From positions 1-47,599 of the IMG/VR virus record IMGVR_UViG_3300043436_004191: DNA of 47,599 bases; one strand, written 5' to 3'. A program made the translations under genes and the position numbers. Below the pieces are notes generated by a model that saw only the letters and a list, made by a program, of their open reading frames with translations, was not told the DNA's origin and ran no database searches. Shown one piece after another: positions 1,962 through 25,948 of this stretch. Origin of the DNA: a virus. Within the stretch, counting starts at the first letter, position 1. Each line of letters starts with the position of its first letter.

Positions 1962-2599
1962 TAACACTTAAACGCATATTAACAGAATCAAAACAACTAG
2001 AATTTAAACGGTTGCCATTAACATATGGATTAACAGATCTGTCTCCTATTATAGATGCAGAAACCATGCAAGAACATTATACAAAACATTATAAAGGCTA
2101 TACTGATAAATTTAATTCAGCTTGTACAGAATTTAATTATACTTCCGATAAACATGGTTTATTAGAGCGAGCCATTGATATTTGTAAAAAATATTATAAA
2201 AAAGATGTTATTAGAAATAACGGCGGTGGATATATAAACCATTTGTTGTATTTTGAAAATATGACACCTAATTATAAACCACCTAGTTCAAAATTAAAGG
2301 CAATGCTAGATGATGCTTTCGGAAGTATTTCTAAATTTAAAGAACAGTTTAAACAAGCTGGACTAGATAGATTTGGTTCGGGTTGGGTTTGGTTGTGTGT
2401 AAATAATGGTAAATTGGAAATATCTACAACATCAAATCAAGACAATCCATATTTTGATAGTAGTATATCAGGAACACCGATATTGGCAATGGATGTTTGG
2501 GAGCATGCATATTATTTAAAACATCAAAGCAACCGGGCTTCATATATCAACGATTTTTTTAGAGTTATTGATTGGCAGGTAGTTGAAACGAGAATATAG
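1958..2599 (+). CDS. Fe/Mn superoxide dismutase with prohead-type leader
   Basis: 213 residues. It would convert superoxide to hydrogen peroxide and oxygen. All four metal ligands are visible: H40 (HYTKHYKGY), H95 (GYINHLLYF), D179 and H183 (DVWEHAYYLKH). The usual NHxxFW segment reads NHLLYF, and the conserved GSGWVWL is present. The catalytic domain starts near residue 17 (FKRLPLTYGLTDLSP). It is preceded by MITLKRILTE, which matches the leaders on neighbouring late genes and ends in a possible protease site after E10. The ATG at 1958 overlaps the upstream TGA; an in-frame ATG at 1943 is possible but would spoil the leader. Packaging in the virion is inferred. Confidence 0.9.
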   Translation: MITLKRILTESKQLEFKRLPLTYGLTDLSPIIDAETMQEHYTKHYKGYTDKFNSACTEFNYTSDKHGLLERAIDICKKYYKKDVIRNNGGGYINHLLYFENMTPNYKPPSSKLKAMLDDAFGSISKFKEQFKQAGLDRFGSGWVWLCVNNGKLEISTTSNQDNPYFDSSISGTPILAMDVWEHAYYLKHQSNRASYINDFFRVIDWQVVETRI

Positions 2600-2608
2600 A
2601 AAAAAATT

Positions 2609-3421
2609 ATGATACGTTTAAAACCATTACTAACAGAAACCGTTAAAGATGCATCTTTTATCGACCGGTTAAAGAAATATGAAAACAGTAAAGGAAATCC
2701 GAGCGGGGGATGGGATCCATCAAAGCAAAAATGGTTTCCACATGGAAGCCCAGAAGGTGGCACTAAAACTATTGCATATGGTCATAAATTACAGTCAAAT
2801 TCTGAATATCCAAACGGAATTACAGATACAGACGCGTCCAAACTTCTAGAACGCGATATTGACAATGCAATTACCAAAATAAAAAATGCATTAAAGATTA
2901 CTAATTTTGATTCGCTTCCGTCATATGTACAGCAAGCGCTTGTTAACGCAACTTTCCGGGGTGAATTAAAATATGGACACACGGCAGTTGGATATATGAG
3001 AAACCGCCAATGGGATAAAGTAGCAAATGAATATTTAGATAATGATAATTACAGATCTGGATCTGATGGACTTAGGGCCCGAATGGAATGGAATGCAAAT
3101 CAATTTCGCAAATATGGTGAAGAACAATCATTATCACAACTAATTCAACTTAAAAATACAGATGTGCAGATAGTTAAGCCAATAGTAAACCCTGGCCAGC
3201 AAATAACTATTCGAATAGTAAACCCATCGTTAAAACAAGTAGATGCGGATTTTAAAGTTGTCGTAGCTCAAATATACAGTAATACCGGGGAGTTAATAAA
3301 AAAACATCGATGGGAAGATATTGAACAAGGAATCCTTCAATTCAATGCCCCAGCAGAAGCTGGTAACTATATTATAAAATTGAATCGATCGGCAACCGTA
3401 CCAGTGCGAGTTGCTGACTAA
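2609..3421 (+). CDS. GH24 T4-type lysozyme with leader and beta-sandwich C-terminal domain
   Basis: 270 residues. Residues ~16-170 look like T4-type lysozyme (peptidoglycan muramidase): E25 (KKYENSKG) as catalytic acid, then T54 and GH in TIAYGHKL, with an insertion between them. The downstream LPSYVQQALVNATFRGEL and WNANQFRKYG segments fit the all-helical lobe. Residues ~185-265 form a beta-rich domain (NPGQQITIRI, then VAQIYSNTGELIKKHRW and AEAGNYIIKLN) whose pattern recalls type A type IX secretion sorting domains or FlgD/Ig-like domains. The first ten residues, MIRLKPLLTE, match the prohead-type leaders nearby. No holin or signal peptide is seen here. It may be a virion lysozyme rather than the lysis enzyme. 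Confidence 0.8.
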   Translation: MIRLKPLLTETVKDASFIDRLKKYENSKGNPSGGWDPSKQKWFPHGSPEGGTKTIAYGHKLQSNSEYPNGITDTDASKLLERDIDNAITKIKNALKITNFDSLPSYVQQALVNATFRGELKYGHTAVGYMRNRQWDKVANEYLDNDNYRSGSDGLRARMEWNANQFRKYGEEQSLSQLIQLKNTDVQIVKPIVNPGQQITIRIVNPSLKQVDADFKVVVAQIYSNTGELIKKHRWEDIEQGILQFNAPAEAGNYIIKLNRSATVPVRVAD

Positions 3422-3460
3422 ATATTTGGAATTTATTATTTATTTATTTATAATAAGTAT

Positions 3461-3694
3461 ATGAATGATAGTAATCAATTAGACCGATTAATAAAAATAT
3501 CAATGTTGTTTCTTGAATCTTTTAATGATACTCATTCTAAACAACAAGTATTAGATTTATTTCCAAAATATTGGAATCTAGAAAAATGCAATGTGGTTTT
3601 AGATAATCTACTAGCATATTGCATACAGTCAGAAAACGAGTTTTGGGAACAAGCAGCTGTTATAAGAAATGTCAAAGAAAAAATTAACTCATAG
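3461..3694 (+). CDS. Small hypothetical protein upstream of ClpS
   Basis: 77 residues, helical and acidic, not recognised. It follows a 40-base AT-rich gap (TATTTATTTATTTATAATAAG) that could hold a late promoter. Its end overlaps the start of the ClpS-like gene by 26 bases in another frame, so the two are probably co-translated. A partner role for ClpS is only a guess from position. Confidence 0.55.
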   Translation: MNDSNQLDRLIKISMLFLESFNDTHSKQQVLDLFPKYWNLEKCNVVLDNLLAYCIQSENEFWEQAAVIRNVKEKINS

Positions 3695-3950
3695 AGGAAC
3701 ATACCAATTAATAATATTTAATGATGATCATCATACATTCGATGAAATTATTAATTTATTGATAAGTTATGCTGGCCATTTGCCGACACAGGCTCTACAA
3801 TGCGCTAGTATAATTCACAATACTGGTAAATATCCGGTAGTAGAAGATAAATATGATGTTTGTTATGACACATACCAATGTTTACTAGAATATAATATAG
3901 TTATGGAAATTATAAAAAAACGTAAATATGATGCTAATTCACACAGTTAA
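3669..3950 (+). CDS. clpS: ClpS-like adaptor of ATP-dependent Clp protease
   Basis: 93 residues. In bacteria ClpS binds proteins with destabilising N-terminal residues and hands them to ClpA/ClpC-type unfoldases. The signature is clear: Y12QLIIFNDDHHTFDE with the N18-D19-D20 triad, and ASIIHNTGK with H50, the residues that form the N-degron pocket in known ClpS proteins. The order NDDxxTFDEVI, then QAxQCAxIxHxxGK, is that of Bacteroidota ClpS. There is almost no flexible N-terminal extension, which in E. coli ClpS is needed for delivery, so the protein might bind degrons or ClpA without delivering. No Clp ATPase or protease is in the window, so a host Clp partner is assumed. Confidence 0.85.
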   Translation: MSKKKLTHRGTYQLIIFNDDHHTFDEIINLLISYAGHLPTQALQCASIIHNTGKYPVVEDKYDVCYDTYQCLLEYNIVMEIIKKRKYDANSHS

Positions 3951-4131
3951 AAAACAATTATTAAGTATGCGTATTGCAGTACTACATGCTACATATCATC
4001 GCAATTTAAAAAAAGCAACTCTCGCTAAAATGAAAAAAAATCTAGTCGACTTTCAAAAATATATTTATAAGTCAGAAGATGCATGGCGAAAAATGGTAAG
4101 ATTGATAACAAAACAAAATTTATATAAATAA
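3928..4131 (+). CDS. Small basic hypothetical protein
   Basis: 67 residues, very basic (many Lys/Arg/His), helical, no known domain. It overlaps the end of clpS by 23 bases; a second ATG directly follows the first, so the start could be 3931. The basic charge would suit nucleic-acid binding, but nothing else supports it. Confidence 0.5.
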   Translation: MMLIHTVKKQLLSMRIAVLHATYHRNLKKATLAKMKKNLVDFQKYIYKSEDAWRKMVRLITKQNLYK

Positions 4132-4142
4132 AAAATAAAACA

Positions 4143-4529
4143 ATGGGTAAAAAAGATGCATATTCGGGAATGGCACCAAAAGACATTTCTACATTAGCAA
4201 TGGATCGATTCATTCGACGAAATGAACAAAAAAATCAATATACACAAACATTACCGGCTAGAAGAAAAGATGATAGTATACCAATTCATATGTGGCCGTT
4301 AAAAGATCAATTGCAATACTGGGAAAATAGATCAGACCAAGACCGATTCCATGAAAAATATATGTCGTATAGTCTCTGGCATGATGAAGTAAAGCGTATA
4401 TCTGGTGTGTATCCGGCAACTTTTTTAGATTATACTTCTAAACTCAAAACGGAAATTCGTGCAATGTATGATCAATGTATGAACCCCAAATTAGCAGTAT
4501 TAGAACTAAGAAAACATGGTGTATACTAA
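4143..4529 (+). CDS. Hypothetical late protein
   Basis: 128 residues, not recognised. It is rich in aromatic and charged residues (PIHMWPLKDQLQYWENR, YMSYSLWHDEV) with no membrane segment or leader. Its TAA overlaps the ATG of the HNH gene (TAATG), which points to coupled translation. Confidence 0.55.
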   Translation: MGKKDAYSGMAPKDISTLAMDRFIRRNEQKNQYTQTLPARRKDDSIPIHMWPLKDQLQYWENRSDQDRFHEKYMSYSLWHDEVKRISGVYPATFLDYTSKLKTEIRAMYDQCMNPKLAVLELRKHGVY

Positions 4530-5086
4530 TGGCTGATAAAAAGGAATATTCTTATATTTATGGCATCGGTCGTAGTTCGTTAAATTTAAGTGAATCTGAT
4601 ATTAGATATGCCATAGAAAATACAAAATCTAATGCAGAGGCTGCTAGATTTCTTAAGGTGTCATTTACGTCGTATAAGAAATATGCTAAAATGTATATCG
4701 ATCATGGTACCGGTAACACATTGTATGATTTACACACTAACCAAGCCGGTAAAGGAATTAATAAGGAGACACCGAATGCAACATCTGGTAGATATTCTAT
4801 AGAAAAAATATTAGCCGGAGAACATCCTAATTATCCTGTGTGGAAAATACGAAATCGCGTATTGGCACTAGGAATTATGCCAGAAGAATGTAGTAGTTGC
4901 GGATATTCAGAAAGGCGTATAACAGATGACACGGTGCCACTTCTATTAGATCATATTGATGGAGATAAAACCAATCATTGTGTAGAAAATTTACATATGC
5001 TTTGTTTGAATTGTTATTATCAACAAGCTGGCAATCCGTTCAACGAGCAAAAGGAACAGTACTGGAATTATAATAATTTATCCTGA
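4529..5086 (+). CDS. HNH endonuclease-like zinc protein with N-terminal helix-turn-helix
   Basis: 185 residues from the ATG overlapping the upstream stop; an upstream in-frame ATG lies deep inside the previous gene. Residues ~20-60 (ESDIRYAIENTKSNAEAARF, then LKVSFTSYKKYAKMYI) look like a helix-turn-helix that could read DNA. The C-terminal half holds CSSCGYSE, then LLLDHIDGDKTNHCVENLHM and LCLNCYY: two CxxC zinc pairs framing an HNH-type beta-beta-alpha core with D-H and N. Such stand-alone HNH proteins are common in T4-like phages and may be homing endonucleases or recombination/packaging nucleases. No intron or inserted gene boundary is evident next to it. Confidence 0.7.
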   Translation: MADKKEYSYIYGIGRSSLNLSESDIRYAIENTKSNAEAARFLKVSFTSYKKYAKMYIDHGTGNTLYDLHTNQAGKGINKETPNATSGRYSIEKILAGEHPNYPVWKIRNRVLALGIMPEECSSCGYSERRITDDTVPLLLDHIDGDKTNHCVENLHMLCLNCYYQQAGNPFNEQKEQYWNYNNLS

Positions 5087-5099
5087 TATATATTAGTAT

Positions 5100-5858
5100 A
5101 TGATTTATCTCAAAAAATTAGTAACAGAAGGTCGATATGATTCATTAACAGGCGCACTGTCTAAAACATTGTTACAGACAATAAAAAACAGTTATACAGC
5201 TATTAATAGCCCAGATGGAAAATTTGCTGGAATTAAGATATATTTTAAAAAAGGCGAAACAGTACCGGAAATTACAGCATCTAATTTCAAAGAAATATAT
5301 TTTCAAGAAGTAGAAAATACTGATATTCCTATAGAATTTTATTTATCACTTAAAGTTCAGTGGATTCAAGGATTTGCTGATCTTCGAAAAGGTGGTGATG
5401 CTTGGAATGATAGCTGGGAAGAAATTCCAGATGATGGCTCTGACCTACCATTGGTTGAAATCCGATTTGAAATTGATCCATCGGAATACCCTGCCGTATT
5501 AAGTGAAATAGCAATGGACCTTCGTGACACTCTTCGACACGAAATAGAACATCTTACTCAAAGCGGTCCGAATTTGATATCAGGTAAATTTATCCCATCA
5601 GATTCGGAATTGAGATCTAAAATAGAAACTGGCGAATTGCCGGCAAAAGAATACTTTATGTTGCCAAAAGAGGTAGATGCAAATATTCAAGGATTATATT
5701 TTTCTGCTAAAAAACGAAGAGTTGCATTTAAACAAGTAGTTGATGAATATCTAAATTTATTTGTTATAGACAATACAATCAGTAAAGAAGATAAACAAGA
5801 AATAGTTAATACGTGGCGGAGACGATTGCCAGCTCTTGGAATCAAACAGGAATTATAA
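5100..5858 (+). CDS. HExxH zinc metallopeptidase-like protein with leader
   Basis: 252 residues. The key motif is H147-E-I-E-H151 in RDTLRHEIEHLTQSG, the zinc-binding HExxH of metallopeptidases; a downstream KEYFMLPKEVDANIQG may supply the third ligand (E). I recognise this architecture from unnamed proteins of marine T4-like phages. The first ten residues, MIYLKKLVTE, fit the leader seen on other late genes, with V in place of L/I before TE. A GATATATATTAG stretch in front may be a late promoter. Substrate unknown; peptidoglycan, host protein or virion maturation are all possible. Confidence 0.65.
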   Translation: MIYLKKLVTEGRYDSLTGALSKTLLQTIKNSYTAINSPDGKFAGIKIYFKKGETVPEITASNFKEIYFQEVENTDIPIEFYLSLKVQWIQGFADLRKGGDAWNDSWEEIPDDGSDLPLVEIRFEIDPSEYPAVLSEIAMDLRDTLRHEIEHLTQSGPNLISGKFIPSDSELRSKIETGELPAKEYFMLPKEVDANIQGLYFSAKKRRVAFKQVVDEYLNLFVIDNTISKEDKQEIVNTWRRRLPALGIKQEL

Positions 5859-6215
5859 ATGGAAGAAATAACTCTTTGCACTACATGTGCTATAGCACTA
5901 GTAAAAGATATTAATGAAGGTAAATTGACTTTAACAGAAGCAAAATACCAGGGAAGAAAAGTTACGCTGAACAAACCAATGCGTACTGGTACTAATGAAC
6001 CTAAAAAATTCAAAGTGTATGTTAAAGACCCGACAACTGGGAATGTTAAAATGGTTCGATTTGGTCATCAAGGCGGTGGAGTCAATCCAGATAAAAAAAC
6101 AATGCGAATAAAAAAGTCAAACCCTGCGCGACGAAAGTCATTTAGAGCAAGACATAACTGTGATAATCCGGGATCTAAAACTAAAGCAAGATACTGGTCA
6201 TGTAAAATGTGGTAA
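5859..6215 (+). CDS. Conserved T4-type phage head-associated-like basic protein
   Basis: 118 residues starting directly after the previous stop. Residues ~27-118 (YQGRKVTLNKPMRT, KKFKVYVKDPTTGNVKMVRFG, NPARRKSFRARHNCDNPGSK, ARYWSCKMW) form a very conserved block in marine T4-like phages, usually unnamed and near head genes. The block starts right after KLTLTE, so a prohead-type cut after E would release it intact. It is basic with a C-terminal Cys/His-containing tip that could bind metal. A head or core role is inferred from family context. Confidence 0.65.
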   Translation: MEEITLCTTCAIALVKDINEGKLTLTEAKYQGRKVTLNKPMRTGTNEPKKFKVYVKDPTTGNVKMVRFGHQGGGVNPDKKTMRIKKSNPARRKSFRARHNCDNPGSKTKARYWSCKMW

Positions 6216-6279
6216 CAAAACTACAGTTTTATTTGTATTTTAACATAAATTTTATTATTTTACTAAAAAAAGTATTATT

Positions 6280-6486
6280 ATGTCTATATCCAATGAAGAA
6301 TACTATGAAGAGTTATTATATAACGCACATCATCTAGGAATTCATGATCATGTGTTACAATTGGCTAGTTCAATTAGAACAAACAATGAATCGCTAGATC
6401 TAGTAGATGCGTACGCTACTGCATTTCATCGACTAACCGAGTATGAATACCCTAAATTTGAAAATAACGAACACCATACGCATTAA
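6280..6486 (+). CDS. Small hypothetical protein
   Basis: 68 residues, acidic and helical with a His-rich C-terminus (NNEHHTH). Not recognised. It follows a 64-base AT-rich gap with no clear terminator. Confidence 0.5.
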   Translation: MSISNEEYYEELLYNAHHLGIHDHVLQLASSIRTNNESLDLVDAYATAFHRLTEYEYPKFENNEHHTH

Positions 6487-6507
6487 TTAATATTGTTGGA
6501 TACTTGA

Positions 6508-6681
6508 TATACAAAAACAATTTGTTGTTGTAAACCGACGATAATAAAGAAATACAAACAACATACAATCAAACGAGGTGTAATACGAAAAGACCAATTG
6601 GATGCTGGTTACTTTGATATGGATTTTTGTGAAACGTATTATAGAATCAAAAAAGAAGTATTCGCATACAAAAAAACATAA
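6508..6681 (+). pseudogene. Open frame without a usable start, possible gene remnant
   Basis: The frame ending at the TAA at 6679 is open back to 6508 and reads like protein (TIKRGVIRKDQLDAGYFDMD, then FCETYYRIKKEVFAYKK), yet has no ATG before 6619. The same frame continues after the stop into the next gene, 63 bases before its first ATG. Either this is the broken 5' part of a longer gene, or a small protein with a rare start (ATA or TTG after CGAGG). Confidence 0.25.
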
Positions 6682-6744
6682 GAATTGTTTCTTGGATTAA
6701 CGCAAAACAATTCTTATACTCATTATGAATTTAAATTAGTAGTT

Positions 6745-7326
6745 ATGAAAAATGATGAAATTGTTATCGGAAAACCTAAACAAAACACCGCGATAACAGA
6801 AAGAAAACAATTTAACGGCCGAACCATACTAATGCCAGTGTATGTGTCAAATCATATTACTGATGAAATGATTGACTTATTTTTATCTAGCGGCCAATCA
6901 ATGACAGTTAATGCCGGTCGTATATCGGAACAGGTAGTACTACCATATCTCGAAAAACATTTTGATAATAAAGGAAAAGTAGTAGATGCGGATGGGTATG
7001 ATCACTTATTCGAAAGTGGTATTCGTAATGAGCATAAAAAGTTAGTAATACGTAAAACTTCCGCTAGCGCCAAAAATATAGGAAAAAACAAGCAAGGCAA
7101 ATGTGATACAATTTCATTTCACCATGCAGGAGTTAACTCAATATTTGTTATTGATTCTAATACATTTTATAAACATGTTATACTAAATTATGACATCACC
7201 AGCAACTGTTGGGATGTAAATTTTTATACAGATATGAAGCTCCAGGGCAAAGGAAAGCGTATAGGATGTAATGCATGGAAAAACACAGAAATGTTATTAA
7301 ATTTTGCAACTAAATTAGAATTATAA
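6745..7326 (+). CDS. Hypothetical protein, weak PD-(D/E)xK nuclease resemblance
   Basis: 193 residues from the first ATG; the frame is open 60 bases further upstream without an ATG. RISEQVVLPYLEKHF, then DADGYDHLFESG and NEHKKLVI give a spaced E, D and ExK pattern as in restriction-like nuclease folds, but this is weak and I would not call it on its own. No leader and no membrane segment. It stands alone before a strong terminator. Otherwise unrecognised. Confidence 0.5.
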   Translation: MKNDEIVIGKPKQNTAITERKQFNGRTILMPVYVSNHITDEMIDLFLSSGQSMTVNAGRISEQVVLPYLEKHFDNKGKVVDADGYDHLFESGIRNEHKKLVIRKTSASAKNIGKNKQGKCDTISFHHAGVNSIFVIDSNTFYKHVILNYDITSNCWDVNFYTDMKLQGKGKRIGCNAWKNTEMLLNFATKLEL

Positions 7327-7349
7327 ATACTTATTAATAATTTTACTAG

Positions 7350-7390
7350 TAAAAATACAGCAGCAAATTTGGTTGTTTGCTGTATTTTTA
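7350..7390. terminator. Strong hairpin terminator
   Basis: TAAAAATACAGCA (7350-7362) pairs perfectly with TGCTGTATTTTTA (7378-7390), a 13-bp stem. The T-run lies in the 3' arm, so it should stop transcripts of the preceding gene; the symmetric A-run would let it work on the other strand too. It isolates groEL from upstream genes. Confidence 0.8.
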
Positions 7391-7416
7391 CTATTATTTA
7401 AATAAATAAAAACTAA

Positions 7417-9042
<1,626 letters not shown>

Positions 9043-9053
9043 TTAATAATTCA

Positions 9054-9104
9054 TTTTGGCTCTTAACATAACTTCGATGGGGGTTCATATGTTAAGAGCC
9101 AAAA
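9054..9104. terminator. Long perfect hairpin after groEL
   Basis: A 17-bp perfect stem (9054-9070 with 9088-9104; core GGCTCTTAACATA / TATGTTAAGAGCC) and a 17-nt loop. On the plus strand the stem is followed by As, not Us, so it is not a classical intrinsic terminator for groEL; it may be an mRNA end protector, processing site or weak terminator. Confidence 0.55.
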
Positions 9105-9120
9105 AAAACTATAAAAAAAT

Positions 9121-9489
9121 ATGGCAATAACAATAATTGATATTGATGATTTCAATGGTGAGATCGTACGAGATAATACGACATATACTATACAAGACAA
9201 CAATTTATTGCAAAATTTAACATTATCAAAAACTAGCCTGTGCGGAGGTAAATTTACAGCAGGACATAGTCACAAAGGATTGGATGAAGTATATTATTTT
9301 ATTAAAGGAAACGGCATCATGCGAATCGATGATGAATATACTATAGTTGAACCGGGCAAGATTATCTTAGTACCTGGAGGCGCATTCCATCAAGTAATTA
9401 ATTCAGATGATTCTCACCGATTGGATTTTATTTGTGTATTTCAAAAATATGATCGAAACGATTCATCAGCAACATATATTACTACATGA
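9121..9489 (+). CDS. Cupin-fold protein
   Basis: 122 residues, one cupin barrel. Motif 1 is GHSHKGLDEVYYFIKGNG (two His, Glu) and motif 2 is PGKIILVPGGAFHQVIN (His), the usual four metal ligands of the cupin_2 family. Cupins include sugar isomerases, dioxygenases and binding proteins, and the sequence does not say which. It begins 16 bases after the hairpin behind groEL and overlaps the next gene by ATGA. In phages such proteins may modify sugars or metabolites; unknown here. Confidence 0.8.
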   Translation: MAITIIDIDDFNGEIVRDNTTYTIQDNNLLQNLTLSKTSLCGGKFTAGHSHKGLDEVYYFIKGNGIMRIDDEYTIVEPGKIILVPGGAFHQVINSDDSHRLDFICVFQKYDRNDSSATYITT

Positions 9490-9728
9490 TTATTCCTACA
9501 AACATATTTGTTAACAATGATACTGCGTATATTGTAATAGAAACACAGCCTGTTAGTAAATTCTGTGAATCTGGATCTGCAGAGCCAAGCCTGGATATTG
9601 TAAAATGTTATCGGGATTGGTGTTCTGCAGATCATGTTTTAAAACAGAATGATCGGTTTTTGTTTTGCGAAACCATTCAGGATGCTGAAGTTATTAATGA
9701 GGATACTGGATCGGCAGTTAATGAATAA
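9486..9728 (+). CDS. Small hypothetical protein coupled to the cupin
   Basis: 80 residues with four Cys (FCES, KCYRDWC, FCET), acidic C-terminus. Not recognised. Its ATG overlaps the cupin stop codon (ATGA), so the two are probably translated together and may act in one step. Confidence 0.55.
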   Translation: MIIPTNIFVNNDTAYIVIETQPVSKFCESGSAEPSLDIVKCYRDWCSADHVLKQNDRFLFCETIQDAEVINEDTGSAVNE

Positions 9729-9739
9729 TTCAATATTTT

Positions 9740-9919
9740 ATGTCAGCAATTAAACCTAATAAAAATTTCTATAATGAACCTCCGGATGTCATTAATATAA
9801 AGCCCCAGTATAGTTCATCTACAACTAGATTGCAACCGCACGTGGGATTGATACCAAATAAAAGATTGCGAGATGTATATGAACGATTCTTTAAAGAAAA
9901 AACTAATCAGACTGATTAG
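9740..9919 (+). CDS. Short hypothetical protein
   Basis: 59 residues starting 11 bases after the previous stop. It is basic at the C-terminus (NKRLRDVYERFFKEKTNQTD) and has a proline-rich N-terminus (NEPPDVINIKPQ). Not recognised. Spacing and coding-like composition support it. Confidence 0.5.
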   Translation: MSAIKPNKNFYNEPPDVINIKPQYSSSTTRLQPHVGLIPNKRLRDVYERFFKEKTNQTD

Positions 9920-9920
9920 G

Positions 9921-9934
9921 ATATTTATAAATAA
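9921..9934 (+). promoter_or_regulatory. Late-type promoter candidate
   Basis: GATATTTATAAATAAA just before the secreted-protein pair. It contains TATAAATA, the T4 late promoter box, and matches the GATATTTATAnATAA pattern found before other late genes here. Confidence 0.5.
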
Positions 9935-9945
9935 AAAACAAATCT

Positions 9946-10299
9946 ATGAAAACATTACTATCTTTAACTTTATTACTATTTGTTTCTCTAAACTCATATA
10001 GTATTCCAATAAAACCCAAACCCATTGCAGTTGCCACTATAGACTCAAACTATAGAGTTACAATTCCTGCAATACCAATACAACGATTCTACTATATAAA
10101 CATTTCTCATTTATCTTTTGAAAATGAAGAAGAAGCAATTAAAATATTCAAATACTATCTTACAGCGAATTTAGTTACACCGGTAATTTACTACAAAGAA
10201 AAGTACATTATGCTAGAAATTTTAATAGAATACATTCCTGACGGTTCTGACCATACAGAATTGCAGTTTTATCTTGATCATCTAACAAAACCTAAATAA
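9946..10299 (+). CDS. Small secreted protein with signal peptide
   Basis: 117 residues. MKTLLSLTLLLFVSLNSYSI is a typical signal peptide for Sec export, cut near residue 19. The mature part is beta-rich with an acidic helix (SFENEEEAIKIFKYYL) and no known domain. It lies 12 bases before the 1009-residue secreted protein and is probably in the same operon; it may be a periplasmic partner of that protein. This is inference from position. Confidence 0.6.
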   Translation: MKTLLSLTLLLFVSLNSYSIPIKPKPIAVATIDSNYRVTIPAIPIQRFYYINISHLSFENEEEAIKIFKYYLTANLVTPVIYYKEKYIMLEILIEYIPDGSDHTELQFYLDHLTKPK

Positions 10300-10311
10300 A
10301 TCAATAAAAAT

Positions 10312-13300
10312 ATGAAATTATTAAAATCAATTTTACTGACAGTATTAGCTTTACCATTATTCTTTGGAAATGTTAATGCACAAATAGTAGGCAGCAATTG
10401 CTTTCTAATGGGGATCAACCAAGAAGTTGGAATTCATTCTAATGGATATGAAGGCACTTCACCTGGATCAATTCCTGCTCCCTTCCCAACTCATTATCGA
10501 GGGTTTACTTCACGTTTAGCGTTTTTATCTAATGCGGATTTGAGCGTCCCTTGGTCAACTTCTAACTATATGGGAGATGTAATTATGCCAGGTTCACCCG
10601 AAGGACGTTTCGGAATGGAGGTTGATGGGGTTACACAATTTAACAGTTCTGCGGCTGGATCAGGTATTACAAGTTTTGGTCTTTCAAACTATACGATTTA
10701 CGGAAAATGTAAATCAGTAGATTGGGATGGAATCTACGCTGGTATCCAAATCAACATGAACTATATTATGGATACCACTAAAACGTATTACCGAATTATA
10801 ATTACGTTGACGAACACCAATCCTATTGCTAAAAATAACGTGTTCTTTTACAAATCATTAGACCCAGACAACAATCAAGATGTTGGATGGGGATTTGCAA
10901 CAACAAATACAATTGAAGCTAACCCAACACCTTTCTGCCCTAAATCATTGGTTTCGGCACTTTCTGTAAGTGGTGGTGATACTCCTGCTTGGTTTGGTTT
11001 AGGAGGAATCGGTGCTGATATCCGTGTATCTAGTGGTGGTTTCTTTGTTGAAGATGGTTCTGACGTTTATGATGGAACAGGTCCAATGATTGGTACGCCA
11101 GGTTATGTAACTTTTGCCGATCAAGCAATAGGTATTGCCCACAAAGATATATCTATTGCTGCTGGTGCTTCATCTCAATTTGAATTTGTGGTTGTTATGG
11201 CTGAGGCAGAATTAGAAGAAGCACTTTTAGCTCAATATTATTTAGATTATGATGGTGCCGATCCTTATGCTCTTTGTACATATGAAGTTGAACCTGATAC
11301 ATTATATCAAGATTGCGCTGGCTCAACTACCCTATCGCTCACTGGTCCAATGTTAGGTTCTTATACTTGGACTTGGACTGACGCTATTACTGGTGAAATT
11401 GTTGGAACAGGTCCAGAAATTGAAGTGACACCTGCTGGAACAACTCATTATATTTGTACCGGAGTGCCAATTGGTGATTGTTTTATATTAGATATTGTTC
11501 GTGAGGTGGTGGTAGTTGCAACAGGAATAGGTCCTGACATGGTAATTGCGCCAATCGGTCCGCAATGTGGTTCATTTGATCTGGGAGATTTAGTAATAAC
11601 TGATTTAGAAGGAATCCCTGGAACTTTCATTGAATTTTACACTGAAGAGCCTGATGGTATAGATGACCCTACGGATATTTGGCCTGGTGGTCCAATTGGT
11701 CCAACAGACGAAATTTGGGTATTAATGGGAGATCCAACGGGTGGTTGTTATGATGTCGAGTTACTAGACATAGATTTTATTGAAATTAGCGCTGGTGAAG
11801 ATAACGTACCTTTCTTATTGTGCAACAGCGGATTTTTGACCGTAGATGCTTTTGATTTCTTAGTAGACACTATATTAATCGAGGATGGATTTATATGGGA
11901 AGAAGTTATTCCAACTGGAGGCGCGTTTAACCCTTTAACGGGTGTTTTTGATCCTACTGGATTGCCTGCTGGCGACTATGTTTTAAGATTTATAGCAACT
12001 GGCGGTGATTTGTGTGATAACGATACCTCACTTCATACAATAACCGTTTATGATCAGCCAAGTGCTGGTGCTGACGGAGATGGAGACATTTGTAATGAGC
12101 CAGGTCTGTTCTTCGACTTAAACACATTACTTTCTGGACATGATGGTGGTGGAGCTTGGTCTGAGATAACTGCTACTGGTGGTGCTTTTGACGAAGCTAC
12201 AGGTGTTTTAACAGTAGGTGGCGGAATTGCTGCTGGTGATTATACATTTGAATATAAAGTGATTGGAACAGCTCCTTGTATTGACGATGTATCTTCATTC
12301 ACAATTACAGTGCTTCCTGAGCCTGCTGTTGATGCAGGTCCTGATCAATTGGTTTGTATCGGTGATGAAACTTCAGTAACTGCTTCTGGTGATCCAGCAA
12401 CTTATACTTGGACTCCAGGAGGTATCTTTAACGGTGTTCCTTTTACACCAGGATTATTGACCTTAACTTACACTGTTTTGGCTACTGATGCAAATGGATG
12501 TATTAACACGGATGATTTGGAAATCACGGTTTACCCGCTTCCAGTAATTTCATTTACTGCTTCTGATTTAGAAGGATGTACACCTTTCAATGTAAATTTT
12601 ACAATCGTTTCGGATATTGAAATCGTAACTACTGATTGGTTCTTTGGAGATGGTGACATCGCAACTGGTGTTACCTTCCCTACGACATCACATACGTACT
12701 TGTTTGGTGGGTTATATGATGTACGAGCAACAGTAACTGATATTTATGGATGTGTTAGTTCAGTTGAATACAATGACTATATCACTGTAGAAAATCAGCC
12801 GATTGCAGCCTTCCAAATGAATCCAACTTCAGTTTTCACTGACGATACAGAAGTTAATTTGATTAATCAATCACTTTATGCTTCTGATTATATCTGGAAT
12901 TTGTGGTACATTTCTTTTTTAAGCAATGAAGTGAATCCTATCCACTTCTTCCCAGATGATATTGGAGATGTTTTCTATCCAGTTACATTAATTGCTAGTA
13001 ACTATTTAGGATGTGCTGATACAGTAACACAATTTATGAACGTAAAAGGAATCATCTTATTCTATATTCCTAATACCTTTACTCCAGATGGTGACGAATC
13101 TAATAACGTCTTTAAACCAGTTTTTGTTTCAGGATATGATCCATATGATTTTCATTTAATGATTTTTAACCGTTGGGGTGAAATTATTTTTGAATCATAT
13201 GATGTCAATGGTGCATGGGATGGAACTTATGGTACACGTGAAATAGTTCAAGATGGAGTTTATCCTTGGCAGATTGATTTTAAAGAACTACACACCGACA

Positions 13301-13341
13301 AACGACATACACATAAAGGGCATGTTACCGTGACACGGTAA
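10312..13341 (+). CDS. Large surface protein with PKD/Ig-like repeats and type IX secretion (type B) C-terminal domain
   Basis: 1009 residues. Residues 1-23 are a signal peptide ending FFGNVNA-Q. Residues ~24-300 form a beta-rich domain of unknown type. Then come Ig/PKD-like repeats; the clearest PKD unit carries WFFGDGDIATG and SHTYLFGGLYDVRATVTD near residue 780. The last ~95 residues (YIPNTFTPDGDESNN, then VFKPVF, FNRWGEIIFES, WDGTYG, VQDGVYPWQIDFK and GHVTVTR) are a gliding-motility-associated C-terminal domain, the sorting signal for the Bacteroidota type IX secretion system. It should be secreted and attached to the cell surface of the host, or used as a virion adhesin. Base composition is visibly more GC-rich, with GGT/GCT/ACT codons unlike its neighbours, which suggests recent gain from a host. 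Confidence 0.88.
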   Translation: MKLLKSILLTVLALPLFFGNVNAQIVGSNCFLMGINQEVGIHSNGYEGTSPGSIPAPFPTHYRGFTSRLAFLSNADLSVPWSTSNYMGDVIMPGSPEGRFGMEVDGVTQFNSSAAGSGITSFGLSNYTIYGKCKSVDWDGIYAGIQINMNYIMDTTKTYYRIIITLTNTNPIAKNNVFFYKSLDPDNNQDVGWGFATTNTIEANPTPFCPKSLVSALSVSGGDTPAWFGLGGIGADIRVSSGGFFVEDGSDVYDGTGPMIGTPGYVTFADQAIGIAHKDISIAAGASSQFEFVVVMAEAELEEALLAQYYLDYDGADPYALCTYEVEPDTLYQDCAGSTTLSLTGPMLGSYTWTWTDAITGEIVGTGPEIEVTPAGTTHYICTGVPIGDCFILDIVREVVVVATGIGPDMVIAPIGPQCGSFDLGDLVITDLEGIPGTFIEFYTEEPDGIDDPTDIWPGGPIGPTDEIWVLMGDPTGGCYDVELLDIDFIEISAGEDNVPFLLCNSGFLTVDAFDFLVDTILIEDGFIWEEVIPTGGAFNPLTGVFDPTGLPAGDYVLRFIATGGDLCDNDTSLHTITVYDQPSAGADGDGDICNEPGLFFDLNTLLSGHDGGGAWSEITATGGAFDEATGVLTVGGGIAAGDYTFEYKVIGTAPCIDDVSSFTITVLPEPAVDAGPDQLVCIGDETSVTASGDPATYTWTPGGIFNGVPFTPGLLTLTYTVLATDANGCINTDDLEITVYPLPVISFTASDLEGCTPFNVNFTIVSDIEIVTTDWFFGDGDIATGVTFPTTSHTYLFGGLYDVRATVTDIYGCVSSVEYNDYITVENQPIAAFQMNPTSVFTDDTEVNLINQSLYASDYIWNLWYISFLSNEVNPIHFFPDDIGDVFYPVTLIASNYLGCADTVTQFMNVKGIILFYIPNTFTPDGDESNNVFKPVFVSGYDPYDFHLMIFNRWGEIIFESYDVNGAWDGTYGTREIVQDGVYPWQIDFKELHTDKRHTHKGHVTVTR

Positions 13342-13370
13342 TTGTATTATGAAAAATCTTACTTAAAAGG

Positions 13371-13402
13371 TTTGGTTAATTGAAATAAATTTCGTATATT
13401 TA
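13371..13402 (+). promoter_or_regulatory. Bacteroidota-type promoter
   Basis: TTTG (13371-13374), 20 nt, TATATTTA (13395-13402). This fits the TTTG / TAnnTTTG pattern of Bacteroidota vegetative promoters. It starts the rightward block after the secreted-protein operon. Confidence 0.7.
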
Positions 13403-13430: not shown

Positions 13431-13682
13431 ATGGAAAATTTCAGAAACGCAATACTGATAGTTCTTGGTACTGCTTTAATATACGCTCTAATCAGACACT
13501 TTGTTAAGCAGGATGAGATGCAATGTGATGCGGTAGTGTTTCTTGAGGGTGAATTGAGTATAGACGTAAGGGAGGTTACCTTCTACGATAGTAACACGTC
13601 TACCATTCACTTATGCGATGGAGAAATTCTACGAATGCCAACTAAAAGCATAATTAAAATTGTAGATAAAGATGTTCAATAA
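13431..13682 (+). CDS. Small membrane-anchored protein
   Basis: 83 residues. Residues ~6-22 (NAILIVLGTALIYALI) form one membrane helix, followed by a soluble beta-rich part. The ribosome site is GATAGGTTAT. It overlaps the next gene by 11 bases. Function unknown. Confidence 0.55.
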   Translation: MENFRNAILIVLGTALIYALIRHFVKQDEMQCDAVVFLEGELSIDVREVTFYDSNTSTIHLCDGEILRMPTKSIIKIVDKDVQ

Positions 13683-16331: not shown

Positions 16332-16646
16332 ATGAAAACAATAGCAAAACAATTGAATGTAAAAGATTTTCCATTTGTAATTAAAGATAAAAATAATAAT
16401 GAAATTTATTGTGAAACTTCAACGGGTTATTGGTGCAAACGTGAATTTAATAAAAATAATAACCGAATTTATTGTGAAACCTCAAATGGTTATTGGTGCA
16501 AACAAGAATTTGATAAAAACAATAACCAAATTTATTTTAAAGATTCAAATGGTTCTATTATTGACAATCGTCCAAAGTCAACACCCGAATACACAATGGA
16601 TGAGTTAATTGCAAAAGTAGGATTTGAATTCAAAATTAAAAAATAA
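16332..16646 (+). CDS. 22-residue-repeat protein, paralogue 1 of 5
   Basis: 104 residues. An N-terminal cap (MKTIAKQLNVKDFPFVIKD) is followed by three repeats of the form (E/K)(F/Y)(D/N)KNNNxIYxExSxGxW, and a C-terminal cap DNRPKSTPEYTMDEL ending FKIKK. The repeats resemble the WxxEYDxxGNxIYYExSxG units of phage and Bacteroidota proteins, predicted to be beta-hairpins. Paralogues are at 27116, 27537, 31197 and 31516. Function unknown; AT-rich DNA repeats underlie the units. Confidence 0.65.
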   Translation: MKTIAKQLNVKDFPFVIKDKNNNEIYCETSTGYWCKREFNKNNNRIYCETSNGYWCKQEFDKNNNQIYFKDSNGSIIDNRPKSTPEYTMDELIAKVGFEFKIKK

Positions 16647-19601: not shown

Positions 19602-19675
19602 GGGCCTATAGCTCAGTTGGTTAGAGCACCTGACTCATAATCAGGGGGTGCCTGGTTCGAGCCCAGGTAGGCCCA
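19602..19675 (+). tRNA. tRNA with CAU anticodon (Met, or Ile if modified)
   Basis: A full cloverleaf: acceptor GGGCCTA/TAGGCCC, D arm GCTC..GAGC, anticodon stem CCTGA/TCAGG with loop CTCATAA (anticodon CAT), T arm CCTGG TTCGAGC CCAGG. Followed by A and CA, so CCA is not fully encoded. Whether it reads AUG or AUA (lysidine-modified) cannot be decided from sequence alone. Confidence 0.92.
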
Positions 19676-19692
19676 CAATACAAAAACAAATT

Positions 19693-20868
19693 ATGATTAA
19701 TAAGCTAGATAAACAATACACAGACCTACTTCAAGACATCTTAGATAACGGAGTCCCTAAGTCAGACAGAACTGGTACAAGTACACTTTCAGTATTCGGA
19801 AGACAGATCCGACACAAGATGTCAGAAGGGTTTCCTTTGTTGACTACCAAGAAGATGCCATTTAAAACAATCACAACAGAACTTCTTTGGTTCTTACGAG
19901 GTGATACAAACATTAAGTATTTGGTTGATAATGATTGTCATATTTGGGATGGAGATGCGTATAAGAATTATATATTTAATTCAGAGTGGTTTCCAATTTC
20001 AAGTGTAAATGGTGGATTTATCGGAACTAAAACTGATAGCGATGAAATAATGACTCAAGATTTATTCATCAACAAAATCAAAACAGATGATGAGTTTGCT
20101 AAGAAGTGGGGTGATTTAGGTCCTGTATATGGTAAGCAATGGAGAAGTTGGGGCGGATATTTCTCTAAAGGGCATGCAAAAAAAGATGGAACATTAGGTA
20201 TAGAATTTCCAGGCATAGACCAAATCTCAAACCTAATCAACGACCTTAAAACAAATCCAGACTCAAGACGATTAATGGTTAATGCTTGGAGTGTAGGTGA
20301 ATTGGATAAGATGACACTTCCACCTTGCCATTATGGATTTCAAGTTTATACAAGAGAGTTGAGTTTGGAAGAAAGGTTAGCACTAGTTAAAAATAATGTA
20401 ATGAGTTTTGATGAATTATCTAAAACAACTTATGATGAATTTCTCAAAAAGAATAATATCCCAACCAGAGCAATCTCTTTAATGTGGAATCAGCGTTCAG
20501 TGGATACGCCATTAGGTCTTCCGTTTAATATTGCTTCTTATGGATTGTTATTAGAAATCATTGCTAAGGCAGTGAATATGATTCCTGATGAGTTGATTGG
20601 TAACTTAGGAGACTGTCACATCTATCGTGATCAAGTTGATGGTGTTAAAGAACAAATAACAAGACATTCATTTGCCTTACCGACATTAAACATTAACACA
20701 GAGTTTTGGCCAACGGAAAGCGGAGAATGTGGTATAGGTCTTATAGATGCTATAGCAGTATTCAACGGATTTACTAATGACAACTTTTGTAAGTGTTTAA
20801 TAGAAGACGATTTGCAATTAAGTAATTATCAGTCACACCCAACTATAAAATTTCCATTGAGTAATTAG
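19693..20868 (+). CDS. thyA: Thymidylate synthase
   Basis: 391 residues; makes dTMP from dUMP with methylene-tetrahydrofolate. Visible are SDRTGTSTLSVFGRQIRH, LLWFLRGDTNIKYL, GPVYGKQWRSWG, DSRRLMVNAW, the active-site Cys in LPPCHYGFQVY, and RSVDTPLGLPFNIASYG with LGDCHIYRDQVDG. It is longer than the usual ~265-280 residues because of insertions after the WDGDAYKNY segment and after YTRELSLEERL. The ATG at 19693 follows the tRNA directly; an earlier in-frame ATG lies inside the tRNA. Works with the thymidine kinase at 15024. Confidence 0.95.
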   Translation: MINKLDKQYTDLLQDILDNGVPKSDRTGTSTLSVFGRQIRHKMSEGFPLLTTKKMPFKTITTELLWFLRGDTNIKYLVDNDCHIWDGDAYKNYIFNSEWFPISSVNGGFIGTKTDSDEIMTQDLFINKIKTDDEFAKKWGDLGPVYGKQWRSWGGYFSKGHAKKDGTLGIEFPGIDQISNLINDLKTNPDSRRLMVNAWSVGELDKMTLPPCHYGFQVYTRELSLEERLALVKNNVMSFDELSKTTYDEFLKKNNIPTRAISLMWNQRSVDTPLGLPFNIASYGLLLEIIAKAVNMIPDELIGNLGDCHIYRDQVDGVKEQITRHSFALPTLNINTEFWPTESGECGIGLIDAIAVFNGFTNDNFCKCLIEDDLQLSNYQSHPTIKFPLSN

Positions 20869-20883: not shown

Positions 20884-21528
20884 ATGAACTATCAGTTAAT
20901 ATATGATAATATCATAACTCGTGCTATTACAGAATCGAGATATAAAAGTACTGATCAATACTTTGAATGCCATCATATCGTTCCTAGATGTATGGGCGGT
21001 AGTAATAAAAAAACTAATTTAGTATTATTAACGGCCCGAGAACATTTTATAGTACATTGGTTATTAATTAGAATACATCCGGATAATAGAAAGTTAGCTC
21101 ATGCATTTTGGGCAATGTGTAATCTTAAAGGTAAAAGTTTAGATAACAGAATAACGCCTAGTTCCCGCACATATATGGAAGCAAAAGAACATCAATCTAA
21201 ATTAGGTATGTCTGAAGAACAAAAACAGAAACTTAGAAAACCAAAACGAGATAGTTCTAAAATGGGTAAACATGATAAACATGGTATCAAAAATCCATTC
21301 TATGGTAAGACTCATTCTATAGAAGCTAAGCAAAAGATGCGTACTGCTATAAAAGAAAATAGAAAAGAAGGATGGTTACCTGGTAATGCACGACCGGTTG
21401 AAATCGATGGTATACGATATCGTTGCTTATTAGAAGTATCGGAGAAAACTGGAATCGGAAATTCATTGATAATATATCGTATCAAATCAAATAACATTAA
21501 ATATAATAGTTACAAATATATTAATTAA
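20884..21528 (+). CDS. HNH homing endonuclease with NUMOD-type DNA-binding repeats
   Basis: 214 residues. The N-terminal HNH core is ECHHIVPRCMGGSNKKTNLV with LLTAREHFIVHWLL. The middle contains GKTHSIEAKQKMR, typical of NUMOD3, and the C-terminus contains DGIRYRCLLEVSEKTGI, typical of NUMOD1 helix-turn-helix. It sits 15 bases behind thyA as a free-standing gene, and thyA/td is a classic homing target. GATATTTATTATAA just in front is late-promoter-like, as known for T4 homing endonucleases. It likely cuts a homing site in phages lacking it. Confidence 0.85.
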   Translation: MNYQLIYDNIITRAITESRYKSTDQYFECHHIVPRCMGGSNKKTNLVLLTAREHFIVHWLLIRIHPDNRKLAHAFWAMCNLKGKSLDNRITPSSRTYMEAKEHQSKLGMSEEQKQKLRKPKRDSSKMGKHDKHGIKNPFYGKTHSIEAKQKMRTAIKENRKEGWLPGNARPVEIDGIRYRCLLEVSEKTGIGNSLIIYRIKSNNIKYNSYKYIN

Positions 21529-23179: not shown

Positions 23180-23639
23180 CTACTGCTCAAACTAATTTGT
23201 AAACCTGCACCATTACGGCTCTAAGAAGTAGAATACCACAACAAACATACACAGCATATATAACATGCATAATTACAATGTAATAGTATAGCAAATAACA
23301 TGTAGTGAAAGTAAATGCTATACTATAACGAATAATCCCAGGCGCATGCAAGTCGTTAATAGAGCAGGTATCCAGATACCCGGTGTCTAGTATCAGGCAA
23401 ATAGACTTGCCGCAAGTGCTAGTATGCAGTATTGTTTGTGGACTCGAGTTGGTGTGGGAGGGGGTATCAGTGTCTAGTATGGCGTGGTAGGCTAGTAAAC
23501 GTATATTTTTACCGATTCTAATTATTTTGATATAGCGTACCTTCATTATTAATAATTTCTGGTACCCATATACCAGTTAAACATTACCACCGCTTAGAAG
23601 TTCTTAAAATAAGTCTTGCATGACATTGATTTTTAGGCT
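23180..23639. other. Non-coding structured region
   Basis: No convincing gene on either strand. It contains perfect inverted pairs TAGTATAGCA / TGCTATACTA (23284-23293, 23316-23325), GCAAGTC / GACTTGC (23348-23354, 23404-23410) and, inside the latter, GGTATC-CA-GATACC (23367-23380). GTGTCTAGTAT occurs twice (near 23383 and 23470). This could be a structured RNA or part of a replication origin. Confidence 0.5.
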
Positions 23640-24044
23640 ATTTCTAGACCATTAAATAAATTTATTTTTAGATTGAATCAGCATTTATTTTTAGATTGCA
23701 ATCTAGTTTTAGACCAAGTCACCAAGTCACCAAGTCACCAGGATCCTGGCAGGTTCTGCAGTCGTTATGTGCGTGTTGATTGCTTCTTGTATATATAGAG
23801 CGCAACCAATAAAGCGCTTTTAGACGGTCTTAGTTCGGTTCTCTATATATAGCGCGCATACTGGATTGTATTTTTAGATTGGATTCAGTTAATTTTTAGA
23901 TGTCTACATGTTATTTTTAGGCAATATCCGGAAATTATAGCAGAAGTTGTTGGTTTGATTTTTAGATTGATCGCCGAAACAAGCACTTTTAGACCGGTTT
24001 AGTTCGGTTCTCTAGCTATACGGAGTAACCTTTTCGGCTATTTT

Positions 24045-24116
24045 TAGATTGTATTCTATTTTTAGAAGTACTTTTAGTTTTAGATTGTATTCTATTTTTA
24101 GAAGTACTTTTAGTTT
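24045..24116 (+). repeat. Exact 36-bp tandem duplication
   Basis: 24045-24080 and 24081-24116 are identical 36-base units containing TTTTTAGA and TTTTAG motifs. Confidence 0.9.
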
Positions 24117-24120
24117 TAGA

Positions 24121-24280
24121 TTGATTTTTAGTTCAACCTTCGCTTGAACTAGATTCTATTTTTAGATGCATCGCCTCGCGCAGTGTATTCTATTTTTAGA
24201 TTGATTTTTAGTTCAACCTTCGCTTGAACTAGATTCTATTTTTAGATGCATCGCCTCGCGCAGTGTATTCTATTTTTAGA
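24121..24280 (+). repeat. Exact 80-bp tandem duplication
   Basis: 24121-24200 and 24201-24280 are identical. Each unit holds a GTTCAA/TTGAAC hairpin, three TTTTTAG motifs and a GC-rich GCATCGCCTCGCGC island. Exact identity implies a recent duplication or ongoing homogenisation. Confidence 0.95.
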
Positions 24281-24298
24281 TTGATTTCTAGTTTTAGA

Positions 24299-24330
24299 TT
24301 TGGATATATGAAGTATTATTCTTATATTAC
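24299..24330 (+). promoter_or_regulatory. Bacteroidota-type promoter leaving the repeat region
   Basis: TTTG (24299-24302), 20 nt, TATATTAC (24323-24330). It is the first promoter of the early array and lies just right of the repeats. Confidence 0.6.
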
Positions 24331-24748: not shown

Positions 24749-24770
24749 TTTAAACTTTTTTCAGAAAAAG

Positions 24771-24802
24771 GTTGTTTTATTGAAATATTATCCTTATCTT
24801 TA
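24771..24802 (+). promoter_or_regulatory. Early array promoter (GTTG type)
   Basis: GTTG (24771-24774), 20 nt, TATCTTTA (24795-24802), then AAAAAGAGAGAT before the ATG. Confidence 0.7.
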
Positions 24803-24828
24803 AGTATTATAAATTTAAAAAGAGAGAT

Positions 24829-25203
24829 ATGAAAAAAGAACCAAAAGTAGAGTACGGAATCCAAATCGTTAAACCATGGAGCAAAGAGATGTATGCCCAC
24901 AATGAGCAAGTAGCTGAAATAGTAAGAGCTGAGGTGCATGCAATTTGGTTGTCGGCATTAAATGAATTCCAGGCTGAATTAGGCGAAGAATTTATGTCTG
25001 ATGTCGAATGGCTTGATGTTCCTAGCAATATAAAGAAAATACAGAAAGCCGTTACTTGTCATGGATTTGGCGATGGATATGATGTTGCAGAAGTAGCACA
25101 GCGAGTAGAGCAAGAATTAGAAAATGCCCCTTCTTTCCAACTCAAAGAGATTGCAGAGGCGTTGCAACTAGTATTAGACAAAGGGTTTGTTGGCTTTAAT
25201 TAG
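24829..25203 (+). CDS. Early hypothetical protein
   Basis: 124 residues, acidic and helical (QVAEIVRAEVHAIWLSALNE, LKEIAEALQLVLDKGF). No known domain. Own cassette promoter and ribosome site GAGAGAT. Confidence 0.55.
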   Translation: MKKEPKVEYGIQIVKPWSKEMYAHNEQVAEIVRAEVHAIWLSALNEFQAELGEEFMSDVEWLDVPSNIKKIQKAVTCHGFGDGYDVAEVAQRVEQELENAPSFQLKEIAEALQLVLDKGFVGFN

Positions 25204-25238
25204 CCGGCAAACTTTTCTGAAACAAAGTTAACAAAAGA

Positions 25239-25270
25239 CTAGGACTATTGAATTATTATGCTTATCTTTA
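25239..25270 (+). promoter_or_regulatory. Early array promoter (CTAG type)
   Basis: CTAG (25239-25242), 20 nt, TATCTTTA (25263-25270), preceded by GTTAAC. Confidence 0.7.
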
Positions 25271-25297
25271 AGTATTATAAATTTAAAAAGAGAGAAA

Positions 25298-25537
25298 ATG
25301 GCAACAAAAGTATCATTAGAAAAATTCATAGTCAATTCGAAGTTAACAGGACATTGCGCGATTTTCGGCTTCGATGACAGCGGCCGCTGTTTGATAAAAG
25401 TAAAATTAAAATATGAAAATTACATTTTTAAAAAAATAATTTTGGCACAAGATTATATTCAAAATCCTAAAATGCCGCACTCTTATCAGATTAAAGAAAA
25501 TATATATAAAAAAGATTTTATCAAAAATAAAATATAA
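25298..25537 (+). CDS. Early small basic protein
   Basis: 79 residues. A short beta-rich N-terminal part (CAIFGFDDSGRCLIKVKLKY) and a Lys-rich C-terminus (KENIYKKDFIKNKI) that is notably more AT-rich than the rest. Not recognised. Between it and the next promoter (25538-25614) the bases ACTTAATGTAAAAAAAG repeat the end of the RadC gene at 26869, a sign of cassette recombination. Confidence 0.5.
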   Translation: MATKVSLEKFIVNSKLTGHCAIFGFDDSGRCLIKVKLKYENYIFKKIILAQDYIQNPKMPHSYQIKENIYKKDFIKNKI

Positions 25538-25644
25538 TGCAACAGCTAGCTATATACAGAATATGCACAGCAATCGCGCGTATGAAACAGAAGATGGTAA
25601 TAAGCACTTAATGTAAAAAAAGTTCAAACAAAGTTGCTGAAAGA

Positions 25645-25676
25645 TTAGGACTATTGAAATATTATCCTTATCTTTA
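25645..25676 (+). promoter_or_regulatory. Early array promoter (TTAG type)
   Basis: TTAG (25645-25648), 20 nt, TATCTTTA (25669-25676). Confidence 0.7.
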
Positions 25677-25700
25677 AGTATTAATTTAAAAAAGAGAGAT

Positions 25701-25931: not shown

Positions 25932-25948
25932 ACTTTTTTCAGAAAAGA

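Follow-up and report, generated by a model that had tools for sequence, protein, structure and literature searches.

A Crocinitomix-type gene pair in a large phage, encoding a predicted type IX secretion cargo and its small exported partner

The window, by which we mean the whole stretch of 47,599 nucleotides analysed here (IMG/VR virus record IMGVR_UViG_3300043436_004191), contains phage-type thymidine kinase, sigma factor and clamp-loader-like genes, and its thymidylate synthase gene is 81% identical at the DNA level to that of the Flavobacterium phage immuto. We read the window as part of the genome of a large phage of the lytic type, a relative of Immutovirus. Two adjacent genes for predicted exported proteins lie between phage genes on its plus strand, as listed below (numbers preceded by L designate the individual viral and bacterial loci of our comparison).

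9486-9728, plus strand: g80 (80 aa), the phage gene that anchors the insertion site on the left; it is conserved in L004 and also where the module is missing, e.g. in phage L055
9946-10299, plus strand: small exported partner gene (117 aa), with a Sec-type signal peptide and a predicted ferredoxin-like domain
10312-13341, plus strand: gene of the large surface protein, a type B cargo of the type IX secretion system (T9SS; 1009 aa, ATG start, intact ORF)
10312-10380, plus strand: Sec signal peptide, aa 1-23 of the large protein (basic n-region, hydrophobic core, ..NVNA-Q; read by eye)
10381-11286, plus strand: N-terminal domain, aa 24-325, predicted beta-supersandwich (AF2 and Foldseek)
11287-12540, plus strand: middle region, aa 326-743, repeat-like sequence in repeated blocks of ~85 aa
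12541-12789, plus strand: PKD domain, aa 744-826 (PF18911, PKD_4, E 5.6e-13; PF00801, E 1.2e-7)
13066-13332, plus strand: T9SS type B C-terminal sorting domain (CHU_C), aa 919-1007 (PF13585, TIGR04131)
13369-13400, plus strand: intergenic promoter-like phage repeat right after the module (family D10, TTTGGATATATGAAATAAGTTTCGTATATT; five window copies, at 13369, 15605, 16250, 19079 and 24297)
13431-13682, plus strand: g83, an 83-aa phage gene beside the right anchor, adjoining g190 in L006, L010, L031 and L063
13672-14244, plus strand: right phage anchor gene g190 (190 aa), present in 251 IMG/VR stretches

The large protein begins with a classical Sec signal peptide (MKLLKSILLTVLALPLFFGNVNAQ; translation read by eye and a simple hydropathy rule) and ends with its sorting domain, which reaches aa 1007-1009 of 1009 and thus occupies the extreme C-terminus. 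A reading of the letters and open reading frames alone (hereafter the sequence-only reading) had described a signal peptide and a full CHU_C-type C-terminal domain (CTD) in this gene. The former is evident in the translation of 10312-13341, and the latter is confirmed by two models above their curated cut-offs: PF13585 at aa 919-1007 (E 2.7e-14, 53.5 bits against a Pfam cut-off of 27) and the T9SS type B sorting domain TIGR04131 (36.8 bits against an NCBIfam cut-off of 35). Five conserved CTD motifs, A-E, are required for type B secretion (PMC12618676). The CTD of the window protein keeps every column that is invariant among 19 phage CTDs, with near full-length coverage of the HMM, and is 78-80% identical to that of its ortholog in a second phage, L004. 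The PKD/Ig repeats of the same reading stand as far as PKD is concerned; the Ig part is not supported by Pfam, which gave zero gathering-level matches for the region of aa ~326-743 in the window copy. The L004 ortholog has a sub-threshold Ig_7 match, and the middle region is probably Ig-like in its sequence. A second PKD-like motif (window 12889-12925, aa 860-871) reads WNLWYISFLS in the window, compared with WNFGDGT in the orthologs. A frameshift behind this odd segment (aa ~863-873) is ruled out by the DNA alignment, which is without indels and differs by substitutions only, and the signature of a second PKD-like domain is, on this alignment, lost in the window phage.

The AF2 model of the N-terminal domain (aa 24-325; pLDDT 82.8, pTM 0.87) finds its best PDB matches by Foldseek (E 1e-7, probability 1.0) in GH94/GH116-type N-domains and in the periplasmic domain of YidC, with a TM of about 0.5, and its top BFVD match is a protein of an uncultured member of the Caudovirales (TM 0.76). 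The domain is predicted to be a beta-supersandwich such as carbohydrate-active enzymes possess, a moderate match (TM ~0.5) that implies no ligand, and glycan binding is only a lead offered by the model. The PHROGs search gave no match for the large protein, which, judged by its sequence, is without a recognised enzymatic domain. The unusual base composition pointed out in the sequence-only reading is real as a difference from the neighbours, the large gene having a GC content of 0.387 and an AT skew of -0.09 compared with about +0.13 in the adjoining genes, but it does not indicate recent foreign DNA: the A/T skew and the low purine content recur in the host orthologs, and the GC3 of 0.23 is phage-like, so that the oddity reflects the composition of the protein.

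The small gene ends 12 nt upstream of the large one. The AF2 model of its product (pLDDT 90.6) has the order strand-strand-helix-strand-strand-helix, and a search with this fold gave no PDB match at E<0.001. An ortholog of ~118 aa precedes the large gene in L004 and in every Crocinitomix locus examined. As for TATAAATA before position 9946, we considered a late-promoter reading and rejected it: 19 occurrences were seen and 12 expected, which is not clearly above chance.

The pair sits at a variable phage locus. The same gene in a related phage, for which the sequence-only reading suggested looking, is indeed present: L004 carries an ortholog of the large gene (64% identical) between the same neighbour genes, likewise trailed by a similar repeat element (9084-9135), and we infer a promoter role for the repeat at 13369-13400. 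These two phages hold the only two phage alleles of the exact large-protein family that were found. A virus contig, L005, which may share the sample of the window, is 100% identical over window positions 2312-11776 and spans the left junction. The right anchor, g190, has a 52% identical counterpart in the isolated Flavobacterium phage immuto. In L055, g80 and g190 are 40 nt apart, an empty site, and in L049, L066 and L069 other small genes occupy the gap; the gene pair is therefore an accessory insertion. The equivalent region of Immutovirus immuto is occupied by genes for tRNA, queuosine, thymidylate synthase and phosphoesterase, and is thus accessory or metabolic and not structural.

Several other features of the window deserve mention. 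A phage GroEL (Cpn60) is encoded at 7432-9042 and is 55-60% identical to the versions of other large phages. The thymidylate synthase (19648-20868, 406 aa) exceeds the length of the Pfam model by ~120 residues, the start listed for it overlaps the end of a tRNA-Met gene (19602-19676), and it is followed at 20884-21528 by a protein with NUMOD3/I-TevI DNA-binding motifs. A gene for a UvdE-type UV endonuclease lies at 41834-42868. Five paralogous short genes (16332-16646, 27116-27367, 27537-27788, 31197-31511 and 31489-31830) encode a 21-residue repeat (NNQIYYE.SDGYW.KREYD-like) that also occurs in a gene of L004 (14799-15107). The non-coding stretch at 23550-24300 contains tandem repeats built on TTTTTAGATTG, among them one of 80 bp that is present 2.2 times at 99%. 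An intergenic element of ~90 nt (CTATTGAAATATTATCCTTATCTTTAAGTAT...RBS) occurs in at least 16 copies over 24752-32493 and probably represents a family of phage promoters.

Scanning 84,980 species genomes for the N-terminal domain returned 21 loci, all in Bacteroidota, with Crocinitomix (Flavobacteriales) nearest; the domain was found in 10 of 60 genomes of the family, often as several paralogs. A search for the donor gene among Bacteroidota, proposed in the sequence-only reading, thus led to the Crocinitomix lineage, where the pair occupies a conserved chromosomal locus. The two genes follow psd in five Crocinitomix loci, two of them in named species, C. algicola (L225) and C. catalasitica (L227). 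These two and L185 and L186 share the order birA-rsfS-ftsH-cdsA-psd-small gene-large gene, and L184 shows the last three of these genes. The phage pair corresponds to this two-gene unit without the housekeeping genes. Over its full length, the window protein is 72% identical to that of L184, 62% to that of L185 and 64% to that of L004, while the values are 79% for L004 and L185 and 66% for L184 and L185. The thymidine kinase gene of L004 was not found by DNA search in six host genomes. Gene order and identity indicate that the phage pair is a captured Crocinitomix operon of two genes and, since the source of the genes lies there, we infer that Crocinitomix is the host of the window phage. With Crocinitomix orthologs and a sorting domain above the cut-offs, the earlier proposal that this phage gene encodes a T9SS type B cargo derived from Bacteroidota holds, and display of the protein on the host surface is very likely.

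Compared with L185, the L004 protein is 97, 91, 97 and 89% identical by segment across aa 24-585, falling to 52-60% across aa 586-912, where it is nearer L184. This mosaic has a break at aa ~590 (maximum chi-square 145.5; informative sites 156:10 versus 21:76; permutation p<=0.0005), and the window copy shows a weaker break at aa ~297. In trees of aa 24-585 with ortholog outgroups the two phage copies are not sisters, a single origin for both being rejected in this N-terminal half (AU p 2.8e-10); in trees of aa 600-1009 L004 joins L184 (support 95/98) and phage monophyly has an AU p of 0.047. The window and L004 copies group with different Crocinitomix alleles. These patterns indicate that the large gene has swapped segments between phage and host alleles, in whichever direction. 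On the other hand, the small-gene tree pairs the two phage copies (support 84/95), which is consistent with a single capture, and the small gene would have been captured together with the large gene as a pair. In the simplest history, the phages acquired the pair once, and stretches of the large gene were later traded with host alleles, in whichever direction. Purifying selection on the phage copies is strong, as judged by a simple counting method with dS near saturation in several comparisons: L004 and L185 differ over aa 24-325 with a dS of 0.79 and a dN of 0.02 (ratio 0.025, host-branch evolution included), and the overall dN/dS ratio is 0.12 for the window and L184, similar to the 0.16 between hosts. 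Such low ratios argue that selection keeps the proteins of both phages functional.

Type B cargo is not confined to these two phages. This broader distribution, the partner gene at 9946-10299 and the exchange of alleles with host chromosomes were points that the sequence-only reading had not made. CHU_C genes were found in 10 of the 48 IMG/VR contigs searched, which were mostly picked by g190, and in 3 and 4 copies in two megaphages, and a profile of phage CTDs confirmed 372 IMG/VR stretches. Most of the 80 stretches examined encode signal-peptide proteins of 660-860 aa with a QYCPALGPDQ-type start, and others encode proteins of 188-222 aa. This QYCPALGPDQ-start family with a type B sorting domain (L105-L183) occurs in dozens of virus contigs, some members having SprB repeats, and a 45% identical member is found in megaphage LR745206. 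A terminase was detected in only 12 of 49 records, nearly all CTD-bearing, which makes the phage status of some CTD contigs less firm; some of them may not be phage. Whether the query was the full window protein, the CTD alone or a protein of the QYCPALGPDQ type, only two megaphages were matched among 50,697 deposited phage records, and the window CTD itself is matched in these two records. Four loci (L004:11028-11429, L091, L092 and L100) contain little beyond a signal peptide and a CTD, in 116-136 aa. They could be free sorting domains with almost no passenger, host equivalents being apparently less frequent. Short CTD proteins account for 7 of 18 in phages versus 6 of 154 in hosts (Fisher p 5e-5), the host list being a top-scoring subset that includes draft contigs.

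Type B substrates reach the periplasm through Sec, pass the T9SS and are then brought to their final location by PorP/SprF-like shuttles, which they require (PMC12618676, PMC9143113). PorP/SprF genes were found in none of 20 virus or phage records (18 virus records, which are fragments, and two megaphages) and number 11-17 per genome in four Crocinitomix genomes, so that the phage would supply the cargo and rely on the machinery of its host. During infection, both proteins of the pair would leave the cytoplasm via Sec. The type B CTD would draw the large protein through the host SprA translocon, and a PorP/SprF-type shuttle, which would be that of the host since no phage examined encodes one, would receive it. 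Once anchored at the cell surface, the large protein would expose its N-terminal beta-supersandwich and its Ig/PKD stalk, and the small protein probably helps to fold or export it. The infected cell would thus probably be re-coated with a close variant of one of its own surface proteins. We lean, by a little, towards a like-for-like role, in which a functional surface protein of the host is re-expressed from the phage by way of the host T9SS, so that the host surface function it serves (adhesion or glycan binding) is maintained or raised while infection lasts. This preference comes from the closeness of the phage copy to the host alleles, its continued exchange with them and the analogy with psbA discussed below. 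Exclusion of other phages may accompany this surface function.

Such exclusion taken as the function itself is the main rival to the like-for-like role, although we consider it rather unlikely. Here, a displayed variant of a host receptor protein would mask, replace or titrate the receptor and block the adsorption of competitors. Parts of the gliding motility machinery, to which T9SS-exported adhesins belong, have been proposed as receptors of Flavobacterium phages (PMC7345892), exclusion was proposed by Bellas et al. for the type A cargo of Cryophage (PMC7468147), and the swapping of the exposed N-terminal half between alleles would suit a match or mismatch with receptor variants. However, the large protein has no known link to a receptor, and conservation to the host allele as strong as that seen over aa 24-325 is not obviously needed by an escape or blocking variant. 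The two roles may coexist, and the like-for-like reasoning, drawn from conservation and analogy, does not in itself speak against exclusion. Superinfection exclusion, altered adhesion and aggregation, the effects named in the sequence-only reading, may each apply. It is also conceivable, but improbable, that abundant phage cargo saturates the host PorP/SprF or SprA, reducing adhesin display and gliding and so altering motility and receptor exposure. Type B CTDs pair specifically with their shuttles, and cargo made in excess is secreted only when the matching shuttle is made along with it (PMC12618676). Moreover, several phages encode the 116-136-aa products described above; short CTD ORFs are present in hosts too, however, and a competitor would need neither a strongly conserved, host-like passenger of 900 aa nor a partner gene.

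The remaining two explanations concern the particle and the assembly. Ig-like domains are commonly displayed by phages, and another type B phage protein, in L105, weakly matches a Hoc-like head decoration protein (PHROG 2973, E 4.8e-8), as might be expected if the product were recruited to virions. The Sec signal, the host-like constraint that extends to the T9SS signal, the lack of a PHROG match for the window protein and the location in an accessory/metabolic region away from structural genes all speak against virion recruitment, which the sequence-only reading had offered as an alternative and which we regard as highly improbable. An assembly chimera or host contamination, a concern of the same reading, would account for a composition unlike that of the neighbours and for the chromosomal location of the orthologs. 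Yet the identity of L005 over the left junction, the same gene order in L004, the relatives with an empty site, the phage-like GC3 and the fact that the nearest host gene is only 72% identical make it so very unlikely that it hardly enters the balance.

More generally, and with less than even confidence, we may propose by analogy with psbA that re-coating of the host through its own T9SS is routine among large phages of Bacteroidota. They would use captured type B surface proteins for this, sometimes reduced to a signal peptide and sorting domain, and would update them by trading exposed segments with the alleles of the hosts they infect. Phage T9SS cargo bears on the adsorption, motility and attachment of infected cells; its relevance to the control of adsorption follows from the suspicion that gliding/T9SS surface components are Flavobacterium phage receptors. 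With a host genus, a two-gene operon, two phage alleles, an empty site and an exchange point, the T9SS tag on a phage protein becomes a testable system. Uncultured virus contigs commonly carry type B cargo, yet the CTD of the window protein is matched in only two deposited phage records, both of megaphages, which may explain why such cargo has been largely overlooked.

The closest precedent is the T9SS cargo of Cryophage (Bellas et al. 2020, PMC7468147), in which phage proteins likewise carry T9SS sorting domains and the host machinery is implied; those are type A domains on an endoglucanase, a GH39 protein and a PA14 protein, whereas the window has a type B domain on a large protein without a recognised enzymatic domain, a co-captured partner and an identified chromosomal source. 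In crAss-like phages, also of Bacteroidota, ORFs with BACON repeats lie near or are fused to T9SS sorting domains, partly near structural genes, and a host operon or allele exchange is not described in the parts of that report available to us (PMC6949934). Among cellular proteins, SprB and other type B substrates of Flavobacterium johnsoniae (PMC12618676, PMC9143113) have the same CTD on a large surface protein, and the window gene resembles the orphan substrates of this species in not adjoining a shuttle gene; it differs in lying on a phage and bringing no shuttle with it. The CHU_C proteins of megaphages LR745206 and LR756502 (634-642 kb) combine a signal peptide with a type B domain, the CTD being up to 67% identical to that of the window, and LR756502 shares the N-terminal domain (31%); they have other passengers, number 3-4 genes per genome and are unannotated. 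As for the evolutionary pattern, cyanophage psbA (PMC3900582) is similarly a host-derived gene of lytic phages with intragenic phage-host recombination, although its product is intracellular and serves photosynthesis, whereas that of the window is a predicted exported surface protein. Our literature search found no paper pairing 'gliding motility-associated C-terminal' with 'phage genome'. Phage T9SS cargo of type A has thus already been reported, while the type B form, the captured operon with its partner and chromosomal source, and the exchange of alleles between phage and host appear to be new.
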